DNA of 64,000 nt from the NCBI RefSeq assembly GCF_000169455.1, contig NZ_AAYC01000001.1:210001-274000 (forward strand). The letters run 5' to 3'. The stretch is from Roseobacter sp. SK209-2-6 (GTDB taxonomy: Bacteria; Pseudomonadota; Alphaproteobacteria; Rhodobacterales; Rhodobacteraceae). The notes below the pieces were generated by a model. The model saw only the letters and a program-made list of their open reading frames with translations, was not told where the DNA came from and searched no databases. How positions within the stretch are numbered: the stretch's first letter is position 1; every line of letters starts with the position of its first letter. Both the position numbers and the translations under genes were made by a program. This document shows, in pieces, positions 7,555 through 62,890 of the stretch.

Positions 7555-7980
7555 ATGCGTCATAAACGTGGTTACCGCCGCCTTAACCGTACTCACGAGC
7601 ACCGCAAGGCGCTCTTTGCCAACATGGCAGGCTCGCTGATCGAGCACGAGCAGATCAAAACCACCCTGCCCAAGGCAAAAGAATTGCGCCCGATCATCGA
7701 AAAGATGATCACTCTGGCAAAGCGCGGCGACCTGCACGCCCGCCGTCAGGCCCGTGCCCGCCTGAAAGAAGATCAGTATGTCGCCAAACTGTTCGACGTT
7801 CTGGGCCCCCGCTACGCTGAGCGTCAGGGCGGCTATGTCCGTATCCTGAAAGCCGGCTTCCGCTATGGCGACATGGCACCGATGGCGATCATCGAATTCG
7901 TCGACCGTGACGTTGCCGCCAAAGGCGCCGCCGACAAGGCCCGTGTGGCCGAGCTGGAAGCAGCAGTCGAAGAAGAATAA
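7555..7980 (+). CDS. rplQ: 50S ribosomal protein L17
   Basis: 141 residues. [24 protein letters not shown] is replaced only slightly from the family start, and [30 protein letters not shown] is the L17 core. The acidic alanine-rich tail (about 115-141) is common in alphaproteobacteria. L17 sits near the exit tunnel of the 50S subunit. It is the last gene of the alpha operon, closed by a terminator 29 nt downstream. An AAGGAA box precedes the ATG. Confidence 0.97.
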
Positions 7981-8008
7981 GACTGTCTGACATCGTCAGA
8001 CGGCATGA

Positions 8009-8041
8009 CCCCTGTTCCTTTGGAGCGGGGGTTTCTTGTTT
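8009..8041 (+). terminator. Terminator of the alpha operon
   Basis: A 10-bp stem with two G-T pairs (8009-8018 with 8022-8031, loop TTT) followed by TTTCTTGTTT. It lies 28 nt after the rplQ stop codon. Confidence 0.85.
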
Positions 8042-8283
8042 AAGAGGCCCTACAATTTGGTTTTCGCTATTACCTCGAAACTAGCAAAACAAAAGAAATA
8101 CTAACCAGTCCTTCTCCAAAGCAACGACCTGACAATTTGGAAAGATTTGCCTATGAGGTCCTTCCCGGCTGGTAGGCCGGGCAGCGCCTGACCTTCCCCA
8201 CGAGAAGGCTCTCTGCACCTGCTGAAAGTCGGCCACTGCCCTTGTGCTCTCCAACAAACGCTTCAGTTTAATTGGACGAGGTT

Positions 8284-8772
8284 CTAAAAGTCCGAAGGCT
8301 TAATGCCATGAGACCAGCCGGCTAGGTATTTCGCTATCCATTTCGAAAAGGAAGGGGCGACCCTAGACCTATAGTCAAAATCGTGATCCCAATGATAGAT
8401 AGGTGCTTTTGCTTGTTTTTCGGATTGAAGATGTTGCTTATCGAAGCAGAATAAATTGCCAAGGCTATCGCTTCCGATTGCTACAAGAGATTCGGGCATA
8501 CCGATTTTGCACCAGTCCAGGGTCTGCGTAACGATCATCTCAGGCTGATAAAGTTCCGAAAGGTCATGCAAATCAATTTCACGATCGGTAATAGCCGTGA
8601 GCAAGGCAAGGGTAGGTTTGGGAAGTCCGAAGCTTAGAACTTGGAACCTGTAGTCCATTGGGAGCTTTATCCCAAGCAGCTGCTCGGCCTGGTCAAGCTG
8701 TCCCGGGTCGACCCGCTCTGGCGGGTATTCTTCCAGACACCATTTCTTATTAAAATCTGAGAGCTCATTCAT
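8284..8772 (-). CDS. SMI1/KNR4 family protein
   Basis: 162 residues from the ATG at 8772; the frame stays open to a TTG at 8862 but I prefer the ATG. The SMI1/KNR4 (SUKH) fold is suggested by QAEQLLGIKLPMDYRFQVLSFG near the N-terminus, then IGSDSLGNLFCFD and a C-terminal WIAKYL helix. Proteins of this superfamily often act as immunity proteins against secreted nuclease toxins. No toxin gene is adjacent, so this may be an orphan immunity gene. It stands alone between rplQ and the DAHP synthase leader, is richer in A+T than its neighbours, and may have been acquired. The ribosome-binding site is weak. Confidence 0.75.
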   Translation of the reverse strand: MNELSDFNKKWCLEEYPPERVDPGQLDQAEQLLGIKLPMDYRFQVLSFGLPKPTLALLTAITDREIDLHDLSELYQPEMIVTQTLDWCKIGMPESLVAIGSDSLGNLFCFDKQHLQSEKQAKAPIYHWDHDFDYRSRVAPSFSKWIAKYLAGWSHGIKPSDF

Positions 8773-8965
8773 CTTTTTTCTGTGGAGCTTTCTTAAGTTC
8801 AGCAGTCTTTCAAACAATTTAGGTTCCAAGCAAAAAGTAAGAAATTGAATACGTGAATACAAAAACAGGCTTGTAATTGTTGCACAACAAACATTCGCAT
8901 GATCCCTTTGAAAAGGTCAACTTTCCAGATAGACAACCCGCCGAATCTCCGTTAGCGTCACCGGC

Positions 8966-9043
8966 ATGACCCAAACCTATGCTGCAATCTGGTTTTATTT
9001 TTATCCGGGCCGACAGGCGGACGGAGGGGTCTTGGCGTGCTGA
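8966..9043 (+). CDS. Aromatic leader peptide of the DAHP synthase attenuator
   Basis: A 25-codon frame starting ATG ACC CAA ACC TAT and ending TGC TGA. Codons 9 to 13 read Trp-Phe-Tyr-Phe-Tyr (8990-9004) and codon 5 is also Tyr, so six of the first 13 residues are aromatic. It lies 110 nt ahead of the aromatic-pathway gene and about 35 nt ahead of a rho-independent terminator. This is the layout of ribosome-mediated attenuation: shortage of charged aromatic tRNAs would stall the ribosome at these codons and favour read-through. No strong Shine-Dalgarno box is visible. The function is inferred from layout. Confidence 0.75.
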   Translation: MTQTYAAIWFYFYPGRQADGGVLAC

Positions 9044-9076
9044 CGACATAAGCGACGCAAAGCAGATACCACACCA

Positions 9077-9104
9077 ACCGCCCTCAGCAGATGGCGGTTT
9101 TTTT
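9077..9104 (+). terminator. Attenuator terminator before DAHP synthase
   Basis: ACCGCC (9077-9082) pairs with GGCGGT (9093-9098), loop of 10 nt, followed by a run of seven T ending at 9104. The left arm could instead pair with GGCGG (9016-9020) or the GGAGGGG stretch (9023-9029) within the leader-peptide region, which would give the anti-terminator. Confidence 0.7.
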
Positions 9105-9153
9105 GTATCCGCCGTCACTCGAGACAGGGCCTCCCGCAAGGAACCTGAGAACC

Positions 9154-10224
9154 ATGACCACCCAAATCGAAAACCTCCGCATCACCGATATGCAGGAACT
9201 GATTTCACCGGATGAACTGGCGGAAAAACTGCCCAGCAATGATCTGGCCAGCAAGACCGTGCTGGATAGCCGCGCGGCAATCCAAAAGGTGCTGCGCCGC
9301 ACGGATGACCGGCTGATCGTCGTTGTTGGCCCCTGCTCGATCCATGATACCAAGGCGGCCCTGGACTACGCAGAGCGGCTGAAGCCGCTGCGGGATGAGC
9401 TGGGCGACGCGCTGGAACTGGTGATGCGTGTCTACTTCGAGAAACCGCGCACCATCAGCGGCTGGAAGGGGCTGGTGAATGATCCCAGGCTCGATGGGTC
9501 CTTCCGCATCAACGAGGGGCTGGAGATGGCGCGCAAGCTCCTCTTGGACATTAATCAGATGGGTCTGCCGGTGGGGACCGAGTTCCTCGATACTGCCGTA
9601 CCGCAATACCTGTCGGACCTGATGGCCTGGGCCGCCATTGGCGCACGCACCACCGAAAGCCAGATCCATCGCGAGATGGCCTCAGGCCTATCGTGTCCCG
9701 TTGGTTTCAAGAACGGCACCCGTGGCAATGTGCAAATCGCCATCGATGCGGTGCGCTCCTCGGCTCATCCGCATCATTTCATGGCTCTGGCGAAAAATGG
9801 CCGCGCGGCGATTGCGGCCACAAGCGGCAACCCCGATTGCCACCTGATCCTGCGCGGTGGTGGCGGCACCAACTATGACGCCGCTTCTGTTGATGCGGCC
9901 TGCCAAAAGGCAGAGCAGGACGGCATCCGCGGCCATGTGATGATTGATGCCAGCCATGCCAACAGCGGCAAGGATCCGTTGAAACAGCCCTTGGTACTGC
10001 AGGATGTCGGCAATCAGCTGCGCGCTGGCGAACAGCGCATTACCGGCGTGATGATCGAAAGCCATCTGGTGGCGGGGCGTCAGGATCTGGGGCAGGGGGA
10101 GCTGACCTATGGTCAGTCCATCACCGATGGCTGTCTCGGCTGGGAAGATACGGTGACAGAACTGCACGGCCTGGCTGATGCGGTTCGGGCGCGCCGCAGC
10201 TTGCCGACCCAGATGGCTGGGTAG
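9154..10224 (+). CDS. 3-deoxy-7-phosphoheptulonate synthase, class I
   Basis: 356 residues. Catalyses condensation of phosphoenolpyruvate with erythrose 4-phosphate, the first step of the shikimate pathway to Trp, Phe and Tyr. The class I (AroF/G/H type) TIM barrel is clear: VVVGPCSIHD near residue 57, the GARTTESQIHREMASGLSCP block, FKNGT, and DASHANSGKDP with metal-binding residues. The ATG at 9154 is chosen for AAGGA at 9138-9142 and because the frame upstream crosses the terminator. The AroF, AroG and AroH paralogues cannot be separated from sequence alone. The leader peptide and terminator upstream imply control by aromatic amino acid supply. Confidence 0.93.
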   Translation: MTTQIENLRITDMQELISPDELAEKLPSNDLASKTVLDSRAAIQKVLRRTDDRLIVVVGPCSIHDTKAALDYAERLKPLRDELGDALELVMRVYFEKPRTISGWKGLVNDPRLDGSFRINEGLEMARKLLLDINQMGLPVGTEFLDTAVPQYLSDLMAWAAIGARTTESQIHREMASGLSCPVGFKNGTRGNVQIAIDAVRSSAHPHHFMALAKNGRAAIAATSGNPDCHLILRGGGGTNYDAASVDAACQKAEQDGIRGHVMIDASHANSGKDPLKQPLVLQDVGNQLRAGEQRITGVMIESHLVAGRQDLGQGELTYGQSITDGCLGWEDTVTELHGLADAVRARRSLPTQMAG

Positions 10225-10311
10225 ACCCCTTAGATCTTAGCTTGCGGCATGGCTTGCATTCAAGCGGTGCGGCAAGCATATCCTTTGGGGAAAGCCATTC
10301 CGGGAGCCCCC

Positions 10312-58507: not shown

Positions 58508-58906
58508 ATGTCAAACGGCAAGAAACCAAGGCAGCCGAACTATTCCAAGATCTTCGGAGCGCACCCCGAAATGGCGGAAGTCGCGAAGATGGTTTGGCAT
58601 GATGTCATCGGGCACCTGGTTGCCTGCGATTTGCTGGACACGAGGCGCGCCCGGATCGCGGATCGCTATGCAAGAGCCTGCGCCGAATATGAGCGCATCT
58701 ACCCTGAAGCCGCCAAAGATGGCCCAGTCAACAAGGGCAAGAATGGCGGCGATGTCTGGAATATGAAGTGGGGGGCGGTCAAGGACTTGAACGTGCAAAT
58801 GCAGAAGTTCGAGGATGCCCTTTTGATTGCGCCAAAAGCCGCAAACGCCACAGCAGCTCCTGGCGGCTCGGGTGGAGGAAAGCCCGCAAATGAGTTCCTC
58901 GACTGA
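58508..58906 (+). CDS. P27-family small terminase subunit
   Basis: 132 residues from the ATG at 58508. PEMAEVAKMVWHDVIGHLVACDLLDTRRARIADRYARACAEYERI and the WNMKWGAVKDLNVQMQKFEDAL block are the P27 small terminase pattern. It recognises phage DNA for packaging. Its end overlaps the large terminase start by 17 nt. Confidence 0.88.
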   Translation: MSNGKKPRQPNYSKIFGAHPEMAEVAKMVWHDVIGHLVACDLLDTRRARIADRYARACAEYERIYPEAAKDGPVNKGKNGGDVWNMKWGAVKDLNVQMQKFEDALLIAPKAANATAAPGGSGGGKPANEFLD

Positions 58907-60671
58907 CCCAACAACGCAATATGCGCGGGATGTCATCGAGGGGAAAATTGTAGCCGGAGAGTTTGTCAGATTGGCGGCGAAACGCCATCTGGACGATTTG
59001 AAGGGCGGGCACGCTCGCGGGTTGTCTTGGGATCTGGAAGAGGCCAATCGGGCCATTCGCTTCTTCCCAAGCTGCCTTACAATTACTGAAGGAGAGAAAG
59101 AGGGTCAGCCCTTTGACTTGCTGCCCTGGCACTTGTTCGTTGCTGGGTCGATCTATGGTTGGCGCGACAAAAACGGTCTTCGACGTTATCGGTTCATTTG
59201 GCTGGAAACAGGCAAGGGGCAGGCAAAGTCACCGTTTATGGCTGGGGTCGGTCTCTATGAGATCCTTGGCCGGAAAAAACAACGGGCCGAGGCCTATTGC
59301 ATCGGTGAGGACCGCGACACGGCGAATGTCATGTTTCGAGATGCAGTCGCAATGTGCCGGGCGCCGGTTCCCGGCTGGGGGGAGGACTCACTGGAGAGCA
59401 CCCGCCGTGTGAATATCAGTGGACGTGGTGACAACGCCTGGCGGATCAGCCACCCAAAGTCGAGCTCAAGGTTTGAGCCAGTTGCAAACAGCGATGCGAT
59501 TTCTGGACCAAAACCCGTAGCGGTTTTTGGTGACGAAATCCACGAAATGAAGACCAACAAGGCCATTTCAATCTGGCGCGCCGCCATCGCTAAACGTCCA
59601 GGTGATCCAATGATGATCCTGGGCACCAATACGCCTTCTGTGGATCAGCAAGTGGGCACTGAATACAGCACCTTTTTCCAGAAGGTCCTGAAAGGAGAAT
59701 TCACCGACGATTCCGCCTTTGCCTACATCGCGCGGGTGGATGAAACCGACGATCCCATGAATGATGAGGCTTGCTGGGTAAAGGCCTTGCCAGCCCTGGG
59801 TGTCACCTTCCCGCTGGAGAATGTTCGCAAAGAGGTTGAGACCTCACGCTTGATGCTCTCAACCCAGCTGACCACCAAGCGTCTCTATTTTGGGATCCCG
59901 GTTGGCACCGCAGGTTTCTGGATTTCGCAAGCGGCCTGGACCAAAAGCCTGGGCTCAGTGGATGAAGACGAAATGGCGGGTAGGCGGTTGCACCTCTCGC
60001 TGGATCTGTCCCAGAAAAACGACCTGACGGCGCTCTCAGGGTGTTGGGAAGGTGACCGGCTGGCGGTGAAGACCTGGTACTACACTCGCAGTTATGAGCT
60101 GGAGGAGCGGGAAACTGCAGACCACATAAACTATCGAGAGATTGAGGCGGCGGGCCAACTTACAATCACTGAAAGCGCCACCATCGACTATAGTTTTGTG
60201 GCCGAACAGGTGAAGCAGCTTTGCGCCAAGCATGAGGTTGTTCAGCTGGTGGTGGACTCGGCCTTTATTCAAGACTTTATCCGCGCCTGTGATGATATCA
60301 GCTTCCAGGTTTGGCTCTATGAGGGACCGGAAGAGCCAGAAGGAAATGGCCTGAAAATCGTAAGGCACGCTCAGGGTGGCAAGGTCGTTTTTGAGGACAA
60401 GATGCTCTGCATGCCGGTCTCAGTGCGTCACCTTGAGGATCATATCCTCAAAGGGAATGTGCTGATCGATGACAACCGGCTGACCACTATTTGCGCTTCG
60501 AATTCGGTTCTCGATACCGATGCGCAAAAAAACAAATGGTTCAACAAGCGGCGCTCGCGCGGGCGCATTGACGGGATGGTAACCATCACCATGGCGGTAG
60601 GTTCCGCTACTGGAGAGATGGAAGCCACCAGCACCGGGATTTCAATCCCTGATGACTATGAGGTCTGCTGA
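58890..60671 (+). CDS. Large terminase subunit
   Basis: 593 residues from the ATG at 58890, preceded by GGAGGAAA. Walker A-like ETGKGQAKSP (about 106-115), Walker B VAVFGDEIHEM (about 210-220), a coupling motif near GTNTPS, and a C-terminal nuclease domain starting LSLDLSQKNDLTAL with metal-binding Asp, then VVDSAFIQDF. It pumps DNA into procapsids and cuts concatemers. It overlaps the portal gene. Confidence 0.95.
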   Translation: MSSSTDPTTQYARDVIEGKIVAGEFVRLAAKRHLDDLKGGHARGLSWDLEEANRAIRFFPSCLTITEGEKEGQPFDLLPWHLFVAGSIYGWRDKNGLRRYRFIWLETGKGQAKSPFMAGVGLYEILGRKKQRAEAYCIGEDRDTANVMFRDAVAMCRAPVPGWGEDSLESTRRVNISGRGDNAWRISHPKSSSRFEPVANSDAISGPKPVAVFGDEIHEMKTNKAISIWRAAIAKRPGDPMMILGTNTPSVDQQVGTEYSTFFQKVLKGEFTDDSAFAYIARVDETDDPMNDEACWVKALPALGVTFPLENVRKEVETSRLMLSTQLTTKRLYFGIPVGTAGFWISQAAWTKSLGSVDEDEMAGRRLHLSLDLSQKNDLTALSGCWEGDRLAVKTWYYTRSYELEERETADHINYREIEAAGQLTITESATIDYSFVAEQVKQLCAKHEVVQLVVDSAFIQDFIRACDDISFQVWLYEGPEEPEGNGLKIVRHAQGGKVVFEDKMLCMPVSVRHLEDHILKGNVLIDDNRLTTICASNSVLDTDAQKNKWFNKRRSRGRIDGMVTITMAVGSATGEMEATSTGISIPDDYEVC

Positions 60672-61983
60672 CTTGGGACTGATGCAATTCTTTTCAAGCG
60701 AACCAGAGGCGCCAGAACAGCGGGATCCGCGGGACGAATTCTGGTTCAACGGGGTTCGCGGATCTTCCGAGATCGGCGTTGAGGTGACGATTAAGCGGGC
60801 GCGCCAGGTTCCGGTGGTGAATGATTGCATTTCCACGTTGGCCGAGTCCGTTTCCAGTCTACAGCTGGGGGTGTTCGAAAGGGTCAGTGCATCAAAGGTT
60901 CGCCGTGCGGACAACCACCCGGTTGTTAAGCTGCTGAGGAACCCAAACAAGCGGCAAACAACCGTCGAATTTGTCTACATGATCGTAAGCGATCTGAGCA
61001 GTGCAGGGGATTTCTACGCCAAGAAAATCTGGAACGAAAAATTCGAGCTTGTTGGACTGAAGCGCATCGATCCTGAAACGGTTGAGGTTGATGAAACCCA
61101 GGATGAGACCAAGCGTTTTCGCTTCACCGACAAGTTTGGGGTTCAGCACATCCTGTTGGAGGATGAGGTTTGGCACATTCCGCGGCCACCTGTGGAAGAT
61201 GGCATCAAGGGCACTTCACCGATCCTGGATGACGGAAGAGAGGCCATAGCAGTTGCGATTGCCTTGCAGCGTTATGCTAATTCCCTTTTTACCAATGACG
61301 CGACGCCATCCTATGTCTGGGCAATGCCAGCCGGGCAGAGTTTCAGCGATAAGGGTGATAAGGCTAGATGGTTAAAGGCCATGGCGCGCTGGCTTGGTGG
61401 GAAAAACCGCTGGCGACCGGCGGTTGTAGAGTTCGGAATCGAGCCAAAGCGTCTGGGCCTGACATCCGAGGAGGCGCAGTTTCTCGATACCCGCAAAGAG
61501 CTGTGGCTTGATCTGACCAGGCTCTGGCGCATGCAGCCCCACAAAGTTGGCATTTTGGACCGGGCGACCTTTTCCAACATTGAAGAGCAGTCACTGGATT
61601 ACGTCACTGGCACCTTGCGCCCATTGCTGGAGCTGATTGAAGCCTCCGTGAATAAGTTCCTGATCGAGGATGAGGAATTCTATTTTGAGTTCAATGTAAG
61701 CAGCCTCCTGCGTGGCGATATCAAGGCGCGCTATGAGGCCTATGCCCTTGGTCGCCAATGGGGTTGGCTGAGCGTCAATGATGTTCTGCGCTTGGAAAAC
61801 CAGAATGGCATCGGGGCTGCTGGTGATCGGTACATTGAGCCATTGAACATGGTCCCGGTCGGTTCTGGATCAGATCGGCGCGATAACCAGGGCAGCGTTG
61901 AAAAGTCCATAGCATTTTTACGCGAAAGCACTGCGACCAATGGCGGTCGCTCAGGATTGGAGATGATTAGAGATGCCGCATGA
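60652..61983 (+). CDS. HK97-family portal protein
   Basis: 443 residues as drawn from the ATG at 60652; ATGs at 60658 and 60682 are possible. VPVVNDCISTLAESVSSLQLGVFER, NKRQTTVEFVYMIVSDLSSAGDFYAKKIWN and LTRLWRMQPHKVGILDRATFSNIEEQS are typical of HK97-like portals, which form the twelve-fold channel at the capsid vertex. It overlaps terminase by 20 nt and the protease gene by 11 nt. Confidence 0.93.
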   Translation: MTMRSADLGLMQFFSSEPEAPEQRDPRDEFWFNGVRGSSEIGVEVTIKRARQVPVVNDCISTLAESVSSLQLGVFERVSASKVRRADNHPVVKLLRNPNKRQTTVEFVYMIVSDLSSAGDFYAKKIWNEKFELVGLKRIDPETVEVDETQDETKRFRFTDKFGVQHILLEDEVWHIPRPPVEDGIKGTSPILDDGREAIAVAIALQRYANSLFTNDATPSYVWAMPAGQSFSDKGDKARWLKAMARWLGGKNRWRPAVVEFGIEPKRLGLTSEEAQFLDTRKELWLDLTRLWRMQPHKVGILDRATFSNIEEQSLDYVTGTLRPLLELIEASVNKFLIEDEEFYFEFNVSSLLRGDIKARYEAYALGRQWGWLSVNDVLRLENQNGIGAAGDRYIEPLNMVPVGSGSDRRDNQGSVEKSIAFLRESTATNGGRSGLEMIRDAA

Positions 61984-62890
61984 AATCGAGCGGGTGTTGC
62001 AGTCGGTCGCTTCGGGCGTCTGGCTGATCGACCCGGAAAAAGCCGCTGAGATTGTGAGCGTTTTGAGCCTGCGCGCTCATGGTCTTCCATCAGATTGGGC
62101 AGAAGATGCGCGCTCTAAACCGGTCTATGCGATGGAGCCTATTCAAGGGCGGCGCGGGACGGTTCACCTGCTGCGCCTTCACGGCACAATTATGCCCCGT
62201 GGTGGCATGATGGCGCGCATGTCTGGAGGTGCTTCGCTTGAAATGTTCCAGAAAGCCTTCTCGCAAGCCGCATCAGATGCGCATGCACAGGCCATTGTCA
62301 TTGAAGTGGATAGCCCCGGCGGCATGGTGGAGCAGGTTCAGGAAACAGCGTCGATGATCTATTCGGCGCGGCGTTCTGGTCGGCCCATTGTGGCCGTGGC
62401 AAATTCCCTGGCTGCGTCGGCGGCCTATTGGATTGCATCCGCCGCCGATGAGCTGGTTGTCACCCCTTCGGGGCGGGTTGGGTCAATCGGTGTCTATACC
62501 ATGCATGACAACCTCGCTGTAGCGCTGGAAAAGGCAGGCATTGAACGGTCTGTCATTTCCGCCGGGGCGCGCAAGGTTGAAAGCCTGCCATTTGGCAAAC
62601 TGGCACCAGAGGCCAGAGCGGCAACACAGGCTCAGGTAGATGCCACCTATGAGCGCTTTACCCATGATGTTGCGGAATTCCGCGGTGTCGCTTCAGAGGT
62701 TGTGCGCGCAGATCCTGAAGAGGCTGAAGCACACTTTGGGGGCGGCAGGGCCTACCATGCACAAGAAGCTGTCAGACTTGGGATGGCGGATCGGGTGGCG
62801 ACACTTAGTGAGACCATCCAGCGACTTTCTACGGAGGGTCGCGTGCCAAAACCAAGCGTTGCCAGAGCGCGCTTGAACCTCGCGGGCTGA
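61973..62890 (+). CDS. S49-family capsid maturation protease
   Basis: 305 residues. AIVIEVDSPGGMVEQVQ and VANSLAASAAYWIASAADELVVTPSGRVGSIGVY are the SppA/S49 core with the Ser nucleophile in NSLAASAA. It would cleave the capsid scaffold domain. A charged C-terminal tail (EAEAHFGGGRAYHAQEAVRLGMADRV) may act as an internal scaffold. Located between portal and capsid genes, as usual. Confidence 0.93.
   Translation: MPHEIERVLQSVASGVWLIDPEKAAEIVSVLSLRAHGLPSDWAEDARSKPVYAMEPIQGRRGTVHLLRLHGTIMPRGGMMARMSGGASLEMFQKAFSQAASDAHAQAIVIEVDSPGGMVEQVQETASMIYSARRSGRPIVAVANSLAASAAYWIASAADELVVTPSGRVGSIGVYTMHDNLAVALEKAGIERSVISAGARKVESLPFGKLAPEARAATQAQVDATYERFTHDVAEFRGVASEVVRADPEEAEAHFGGGRAYHAQEAVRLGMADRVATLSETIQRLSTEGRVPKPSVARARLNLAG

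Follow-up and report, generated by a model that had tools for sequence, protein, structure and literature searches.

A very probable ribosome-mediated attenuator with mixed aromatic codons in front of an accessory DAHP synthase gene in Roseobacter sp. SK209-2-6 and other Proteobacteria

The 64,000-nucleotide stretch of Roseobacter sp. SK209-2-6 DNA analysed here (the window; contig NZ_AAYC01000001.1, positions 210,001 to 274,000, from a genome of 4.55 Mb) carries on its forward strand a gene for a class I DAHP synthase of the AroFGH type (9154-10224). This assignment, already made in the original prediction from the sequence letters, was confirmed by a match to NCBIfam TIGR00034 (aroFGH) with 503.3 bits against a cut-off of 173.2. 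The same strand carries upstream of it a short ORF of 25 codons plus stop (8966-9043), encoding MTQTYAAIWFYFYPGRQADGGVLAC, and a terminator hairpin region (9076-9104), and the DAHP synthase gene is the one that these elements would regulate. The nearest named relatives by the DAHP synthase protein belong to Leisingera, with 79-82% identity among the best 80 of at least 591 stretches. A 192-aa ORF for which NCBIfam gave no match at E 0.001 lies on the minus strand between rplQ and the leader (8284-8862), and at 58827-62890 there are consecutive ORFs resembling phage terminase, portal and S49-type peptidase proteins, which, judged from their sequence, probably belong to a prophage.

The distribution of the class I gene was found to be patchy. 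It is present in 6 of 120 genomes of the family and in 9 of 12 of the genus, and 21 of 387 genomes of the class match it at E 0.001, three of these 21 matches being weak (about 30% identical). A class II DAHP synthase is present at another place in all 12 genomes of the genus. The class I gene and its leader form an optional segment between rplQ and htrA (window 7978-10248), and in the three genomes of the genus without the gene (L162, L164 and L167) rplQ is directly followed by htrA. These three genomes also gave no hit to the leader peptide or to our RNA model, so that within the genus the leader is present or absent together with the gene; in the ninth genome that has the gene, the contig ends within it and the leader is unreadable. 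Judged from this gene content, the class I enzyme is a second DAHP synthase of accessory character, and its gene appears and vanishes with the leader.

The leader ORF has the composition that had been claimed for it, with Tyr at codon 5 and Trp-Phe-Tyr-Phe-Tyr at codons 9-13 (8990-9004). At least six aromatic residues in codons 2-13 would be expected by chance with a probability of 1.1e-5 (binomial, with a background aromatic frequency of 5.0% taken from four window genes), so that the density is indeed above chance as proposed. Among 477 short window ORFs (ATG start, 15-40 aa, one per stop codon, both strands) the leader ORF ranks first in local aromatic density, with 6 in 10 residues, and no other contains five consecutive aromatics; the two runners-up, with 5 aromatics in 10, are located inside longer ORFs. 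Tyr5 had been counted with the aromatic run and is present, but it does not qualify as an acting codon, as it is replaced by Val in L003 and lies too far upstream. Assignment to a known leader-peptide protein family was rejected, since three leaders searched against NCBIfam and Pfam matched no family at E values up to 1.

A -35 element, TAGACA (8930-8935, forward strand, 5/6 identical to TTGACA), begins 36 nt before the leader ATG, and a probable -10 element read by eye, TTAGCG (8952-8957), ends 8 nt before it; in many relatives the latter reads CTATAT or CTAGCG. In all 41 alphaproteobacterial leaders compared, the best hexamer agrees with TTGACA in at least five of six positions and starts at -38 to -35 (29 at -36 and 10 at -35), and such a hexamer at -36 to -30 was obtained in 39/41 leaders as against 1.9% of shuffles. 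Most of these leaders also show, by eye, a -10-like hexamer ending 7-8 nt before the ATG. The window leader has no Shine-Dalgarno sequence, and the best Shine-Dalgarno match reaches 2-3 of 6 positions in 38 of the 41 alphaproteobacterial leaders as compared to at least 4 of 6 in 38 of the 41 downstream genes. From the promoter spacing and the missing Shine-Dalgarno sequence, the transcript is therefore predicted to begin at or next to the leader ATG, and the leader ORF in alphaproteobacteria is probably leaderless. Leaders of the other lineages did not show this promoter spacing (a 5/6 hexamer in 5 of 30, none at -36 or -35), and they likewise have no clear Shine-Dalgarno match.

Downstream of the control codons, four arms on the forward strand can be recognized in the RNA. 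Arm 1 (9004-9011) pairs in the full-length fold through UCCG (9004-9007) with CGGA (9022-9025) and GCC (9009-9011) with GGC (9016-9018); it is placed elsewhere in some lineages. Arm 2 (9016-9032) consists of the core GGCGG (9016-9020) and the inner pairing GGAGGGGUCU and would form the left half of an antiterminator, the right half being arm 3 (9061-9082), with CCGCC (9078-9082) and the upstream AGCAGAUACCACACCAA. Positions 9076-9082 of arm 3 are at the same time the left arm of the intrinsic terminator, which is completed by arm 4 (9093-9104), comprising GGCGGTT (9093-9099) and the T run (9098-9104). Hence arm 3 with its neighbours is complementary to both arm 4 and arm 2, in line with the suggestion that an alternative partner for the terminator's left arm exists at 9016-9029. 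The terminator with its T run was borne out, but not its stem length of 6 bp: AACCGCC (9076-9082) and GGCGGTT (9093-9099) form seven perfect pairs around a 10-nt loop, with seven T and with the last two pairs inside the T run. A simple promoter and terminator scan of the region found nothing; the terminator was missed because the scan allows loops of at most 8.

RNA folding, a check that had been recommended, gave a divided result. The expected arms fold: the whole leader adopts 1:2 plus 3:4, and the 2:3 form appears when the RNA is folded without its first 36 nt and without arm 4. The energy of the whole leader, on the other hand, is ordinary for its composition (z -0.70), the stability of the antiterminator fold is not unusual (z -0.55), and the 2:3 core of the genus was not significant in comparison to codon-shuffled leaders, 64-76 of 100 shuffles being as good.

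Loss of the ORF and the stems from close relatives, the observation named beforehand as fatal to the prediction, was not seen, as both are kept in the seven other readable members of the genus. Across the eight genus sequences the mean pairwise identity of the leader ORF is 0.990 as against 0.400 for the DNA 60-190 nt 5' of the ATG, and the terminator is 99% identical. Beyond the genus, leader and stems are also kept in further genera of the family, and their conservation extends over Alphaproteobacteria, Burkholderiales and Xanthomonadales. With fixed criteria (an ATG ORF 14-45 codons long, four or more aromatics within 10 residues and a terminator downstream), leader and terminator were found in 72 of 109 loci and then in 41 of 67 further loci, the remaining 26 giving no such finding; on the 67 further loci, 0/670 shuffles and 1/67 reverse complements passed. 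One locus, L094, had been dropped before the count of 109 on account of a gene cut at the contig end. The 67 further loci comprise 27 loci and 40 hand-picked ones, mostly one or two per family, out of 221 genomes with a match, and locus counts in this study are unthinned for relatedness unless given as distinct.

In Alphaproteobacteria, 41/44 and 23/23 loci, in total 64/67, carry leader and terminator, and the three misses are L073 (leader and arms with an interrupted T run), L106 (two aromatics only) and L098 (upstream region cut at the contig end). Leader and terminator are further present in most of the sampled loci of Burkholderia, Caballeronia, Paraburkholderia, Massilia, Xanthomonas, Stenotrophomonas and Dyella. 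The same criteria found no such element in L024, a Candidatus Burkholderia, or in the sampled Erwinia, Pantoea, Serratia, Vibrio, Methylotenera, Thiomonas and Rhodocyclus loci, so that the sampled enterobacterial and Vibrionaceae loci gave none. Representative leaders are those of Leisingera (MTRTYAAFWYFFYPRHMADGGVSAF), Bradyrhizobium (MITVATSYFWYFSYDSSLAAGGSRSI), Xanthomonas (MNANRSFYFWYYGFPMPLAEEGVRSP) and Burkholderia (MSAKFYFYFFWHLKPLADREG). Two large Paracoccus plasmids also carry the gene together with the attenuator, L255 at 2339-2476 (NZ_CP087599.1) and L256 at 2333-2476 (NZ_CP035286.1). The Paracoccus plasmid leader is absent from the gene table consulted, which is itself incomplete.

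The aromatic codons of the window leader lie about 12-27 nt 5' of the antiterminator arm at 9016-9020. When 94 distinct leaders, selected by aromatic content and not by the position of the aromatics, were aligned on arm 2 (L198 being excluded as its arm 2 deviates from the search motifs), aromatics were counted in 70, 76, 90, 92, 44 and 67 leaders at codon offsets -9 to -4, respectively. The peak at offsets -6 (92/94) and -7 (90/94) corresponds to 18-21 nt 5' of the GGCGG of arm 2, and from offset -2 onward no offset has aromatics in more than 4/94 leaders. This spacing fits a ribosome whose leading edge would halt just before arm 2. Trp, Phe and Tyr are each found at the critical distances, and Trp is the commonest residue at offset -8 (37/94). 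All three aromatics are present in 35 of 41 alphaproteobacterial leaders and in 20 of 31 others; Trp is missing in 6/41 and 11/31, and Phe and Tyr are both present in 41/41 alphaproteobacterial leaders. Beyond the aromatic run, Ala before it and Pro followed by Leu-Ala-Glu or Met-Ala-Asp after it are recurrent, the most constant residue being Ala at offset +1 (83/94), which is encoded by arm 2 itself.

The codon choice in the leaders also differs from that of the genes downstream. In the 41 alphaproteobacterial leaders UUU and UAU are used 157 times versus 55 for UUC and UAC, and in the downstream genes 116 versus 320, related loci being unthinned in these counts. The contrast is mostly due to Phe, with UUU:UUC of 70:26 in leaders and 21:213 in genes. 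The Tyr codons UAU:UAC stand at 87:29 in leaders and are near even in genes (UAC 107, UAU 95).

The arms covary between lineages. Over 113 loci with 66 distinct arm sets, the contiguous 2:3 pairing amounts to 5 pairs in 31 loci, 6-9 in 76 and 3 in 6. The base following the core in arms 2, 3 and 4 is T/A/T in 65/113 loci, A/T/A in L016 and L020, and C/G/C in L107, L108, L227 and L198 (the last with a broken arm 2 core). At this position arms 2 and 3 pair in 78/113 loci and are unpaired in 35/113, including the window's genus. Within the core itself, five loci around L109 and the Paracoccus leaders have an A in arm 2 together with a T in arm 3, the Paracoccus arms being compensated as CCAGCGG / CCGCTGG. 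Two alignments were prepared, A1 with 38 of 42 alphaproteobacterial leaders and A2 with 34 of 72 leaders, near-identical ones being removed by hand. For the 3:4 helix in A2 (34 rows), 98.3% of cells are paired and there are 12 doubly changed cells, all at one pair, a number reached in 0/500 shuffles. For the 2:3 helix in A2, three pairs are changed on both sides (4/500 shuffles gave as many); its other measures are weak, with 191/500 shuffles as high for doubly changed cells, 86/500 for the covariation score and 31/500 for paired cells.

In the window's family, RNAalifold gave a 2:3 core of five invariant pairs plus an inner helix, and no compensatory change was found in this core; its support there is therefore by homology. 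The expectation that an alignment of relatives would reveal conserved aromatic codons and covarying stems thus held for the codons and, between lineages, for the stems, but not for covariation within the window's own family: arms 2, 3 and 4 covary between lineages and do not do so within it.

Three features identified in this study go beyond the original prediction, namely the promoter abutting the ATG, the accessory nature of the DAHP synthase gene and a fifth arm. Arm 5 (CCGCCGTC, 9109-9116, forward strand) lies shortly past the T run and is complementary to GAUGGCGG (9090-9097) of arm 4 and could pair only in read-through RNA. The fold of 9070-9125 is stable (z -3.26). Complementarity of arm 5 exceeds that of shuffles at the 5% level in 42 of 64 alphaproteobacterial, 10 of 16 Xanthomonadales and 1 of 33 other leaders, and as a control an arm-5-like complement was found at 1 of 23 terminators of the same genome. 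Pair counting detected no 4:5 covariation (80.2% of cells paired, equalled by 100/500 shuffles), and therefore the support for arm 5 is the complementarity test and not covariation. Arm 5 is transcribed only once the terminator lies behind the polymerase, so that an effect on termination is unlikely; most likely it would steady the read-through RNA. A possible helix also exists between the first 12 nt and the sequence past arm 2 (window 8966-8977 with 9021-9048). Own partners matched better than swapped ones in Alphaproteobacteria (0/2000 permutations as good, 49 distinct) and in Xanthomonadales (9/2000, 10 distinct), and not in the remaining lineages (1397/2000, 28 distinct). Since the permutation test ignores relatedness, this better matching within clades than between them is suggestive only.

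Taken together, the locus has a short ORF with end-product codons before a biosynthetic gene for these end products, an intrinsic terminator between this ORF and the gene, and a putative terminator-excluding antiterminator whose free arm lies just past the control codons, as indicated by between-lineage covariation and fixed spacing. It is very probably a ribosome-mediated transcription attenuator of the accessory DAHP synthase gene, a reading that was put forward in the original prediction and is strengthened by the conservation of leader and stems and by the covariation of the arms between lineages. Transcription would start at or beside the leader ATG with the ribosome trailing the RNA polymerase. 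When too little tRNA charged with Trp, Phe or Tyr is available, the ribosome would stall at codons 9-13 and cover arm 1; arm 2 (GGCGG) could then pair with arm 3 (CCGCC), and the polymerase would enter the gene. When all three are plentiful, the ribosome would continue and arm 2 would be taken by arm 1 or covered; arm 3 would then pair with arm 4 and transcription would end in the T run. A ribosome at the stop codon would leave arm 2 at the edge of its footprint, and therefore termination probably relies on the 1:2 pairing. The conserved leader, the codon-to-arm spacing, the exclusive covarying arms, the terminator and the co-occurrence of gene and leader in the genus are the parts of this model backed by sequence comparison; we infer that the ribosome stalls, that each of the amino acids is sensed, that the start is leaderless and what arm 5 does.

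A response of one element to all three amino acids may be expected from the mixed codons, and here an alternative deserves serious, if lesser, consideration: the same attenuation may effectively sense one or two amino acids, e.g. Phe or Tyr, with the other aromatic codons being neutral or driven by the RNA. The AroR leader of C. glutamicum, with Phe-Tyr-Phe, responds according to the available part of one report to Phe limitation and not to Tyr (PMC11802643), and the lack of Trp in 6/41 alphaproteobacterial and 11/31 other leaders, together with Phe and Tyr in all 41 of the former, points in the same direction. The prominence of Trp at offset -8 (37/94), the occurrence of all three residues at the critical distances and the 35/41 alphaproteobacterial leaders holding all of them argue instead for a combined response. 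It is rather unlikely that, besides attenuation in cis, the terminated leader RNA (about 140 nt) or the peptide acts in trans like rnTrpL and peTrpL of Sinorhizobium meliloti. The terminated RNA would be a small leaderless mRNA as rnTrpL is, as far as the accessible text of the sources goes (PMC7298713, PMC10117765), and the leader ORF is 99% identical among the eight genus sequences; yet no target was indicated by our analyses, and codons and arms explain much of this conservation.

Sensing of small molecules in the ribosome tunnel is also performed by arrest peptides such as TnaC. That the leader peptide arrests the ribosome in response to a free small molecule in the tunnel, rather than to uncharged tRNA, could be read from the recurrent residues outside the aromatic run (Ala; Pro; Leu-Ala-Glu or Met-Ala-Asp). 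However, the most constant of the residues, Ala at +1 (83/94), is encoded by arm 2, and the aromatics differ between lineages in kind and in order, a variation that an arrest peptide dependent on its sequence is unlikely to tolerate; we regard this reading as very improbable. A chance ORF ahead of an ordinary terminator would agree with the average fold energy of the whole leader and with the empty simple promoter and terminator scans, but it is hardly credible in view of the conservation in three groups of Proteobacteria, the covarying arms and the fixed spacing, and it was rejected on the top aromatic density among 477 ORFs and on the 0/670 shuffles that passed the fixed criteria.

An RNA model, R1, was built from 34 leaders and used to search for further members. 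Scores of 88-116 bits were obtained in six of the 120 family genomes, which are exactly those that carry the class I gene; as these six are among the model's own sequences, the informative part of this result is that no other place exceeds 27.9 bits. Outside its own sequences R1 recovered L106 (72.7 bits), L073 (40.7 bits) and the two Paracoccus plasmids (35.9 and 26.9 bits). In L106 the leader has two adjacent aromatics only (MNAARTLSARFYPRSIAGGIRGA) with an intact RNA element, and it is possibly a decaying or single-site sensor. Some R1 match at E 0.01 exists in 61 of the 120 family genomes, many of them covering terminator positions only. As a true Paracoccus member scores 26.9 bits, diverged members may hide among the weak matches. 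Among 24 weak-match loci (L132-L155), three (L135, L137 and L138) have nearby a short ORF in which 10 residues include four or more aromatics, and L145 and L153, which are full-length weak matches, have no aromatic leader.

L137 (25.4 bits), whose genome belongs to the family but lacks the class I gene, is a weak full-length match with leader and terminator on the minus strand (1635 down to 1525), combining the ORF MIRIATLASAARWYFTAYT, an upstream TTGACC hexamer and a GCCGCC/GGCGGC terminator. It precedes a gene for a 152-aa GNAT-family protein (1482 down to 1027, minus strand; Pfam PF00583, 54.6 bits). The L137 RNA folds with unusual stability (z -5.0), forming a strong 1:2 hairpin, and its 5' end, AUGAUCC, pairs with GGAUCAU past arm 2. 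L137 is possibly the same kind of switch on a GNAT acetyltransferase gene. Occurrence of the element before other genes could thus be rejected only in part: matches away from the class I gene reach at most 27.9 bits, but the L137 look-alike remains. A bolder reading may be offered tentatively, namely that these attenuators, with five arms and a leaderless start, make up a widespread family not described before, which would gauge Phe, Tyr and Trp jointly ahead of the enzyme that opens the common pathway. In this family arm 5, possibly with the 5'-end helix, would act as a second layer that locks the read-through RNA as 2:3 plus 4:5 and alters mRNA stability or translation beyond termination, and the design may also stand before other genes, as in L137.

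In E. coli, the DAHP synthases are controlled by repressors and by enzyme feedback. The original paper on the AroR leader of C. glutamicum is reportedly that of Neshat et al. 2014. This leader, with Phe-Tyr-Phe, precedes aroF and mediates a response to Phe limitation by ribosome-mediated attenuation, as stated in the available parts of two reports (PMC11802643, PMC4046766). It resembles our element in having an aromatic leader peptide and ribosome-mediated attenuation before a DAHP synthase gene, but it is actinobacterial and the available descriptions mention no Trp codon, whereas most alphaproteobacterial members here have Trp; the two were compared by description only. The uORFC-13-1 motif of Acholeplasma, with 24 representatives, is described in the accessible text as a predicted Phe-containing upstream ORF beside a terminator before aroF (PMC8632094). 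It differs in that a U run codes for at least one Phe, in its restriction to Acholeplasma and environmental sequences and in being a prediction. The same source cites an attenuation-like control once hypothesised for E. coli aroF. Putative attenuators from a database of predicted attenuators were reported in 2005 before the DAHP synthase-tyrA operon of two Vibrio species, no leader peptide being mentioned in the part of that source available (PMC1173090), and the one Vibrio locus sampled here (L050) has no aromatic leader by the fixed criteria. The trpL attenuator of trpE(G) in S. meliloti is likewise alphaproteobacterial and ribosome-mediated, with a transcript beginning at the leader ATG, as is predicted here; it differs by its Trp codons, its 14-aa leader and its location before trpE(G), as far as described in the excerpts available (PMC7298713, PMC10117765). 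The sole Rfam model touching 8965-9104 at E up to 10 was Phe_leader (RF01859), and membership in it was rejected at 14.2 bits (E 9.1) against a gathering score of 55.

Aromatic-leader attenuators before DAHP synthase genes are thus already known, being described for AroR of C. glutamicum and predicted for Acholeplasma, as far as the accessible text of these sources goes. An earlier description of the proteobacterial leader family emerged neither from the peptide and RNA searches nor from the literature matches listed, and the attenuator database of PMC1173090 may hold members of it. The mixed Trp, Phe and Tyr codons, the probably leaderless ORF and the predicted fifth arm are the features that appear new in our study.

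All aromatic amino acids depend on DAHP synthase as the entry step, and one kind of mixed-codon RNA switch before its gene appears to be shared by alphaproteobacteria, Burkholderiales and Xanthomonadales. The 94 distinct leaders with their fixed spacing offer a test bed for the stall positions that permit antitermination and for the question of whether such a leader works as an OR gate for three amino acids. Moreover, an accessory DAHP synthase may arrive with its own control in genomes which already have the class II enzyme.
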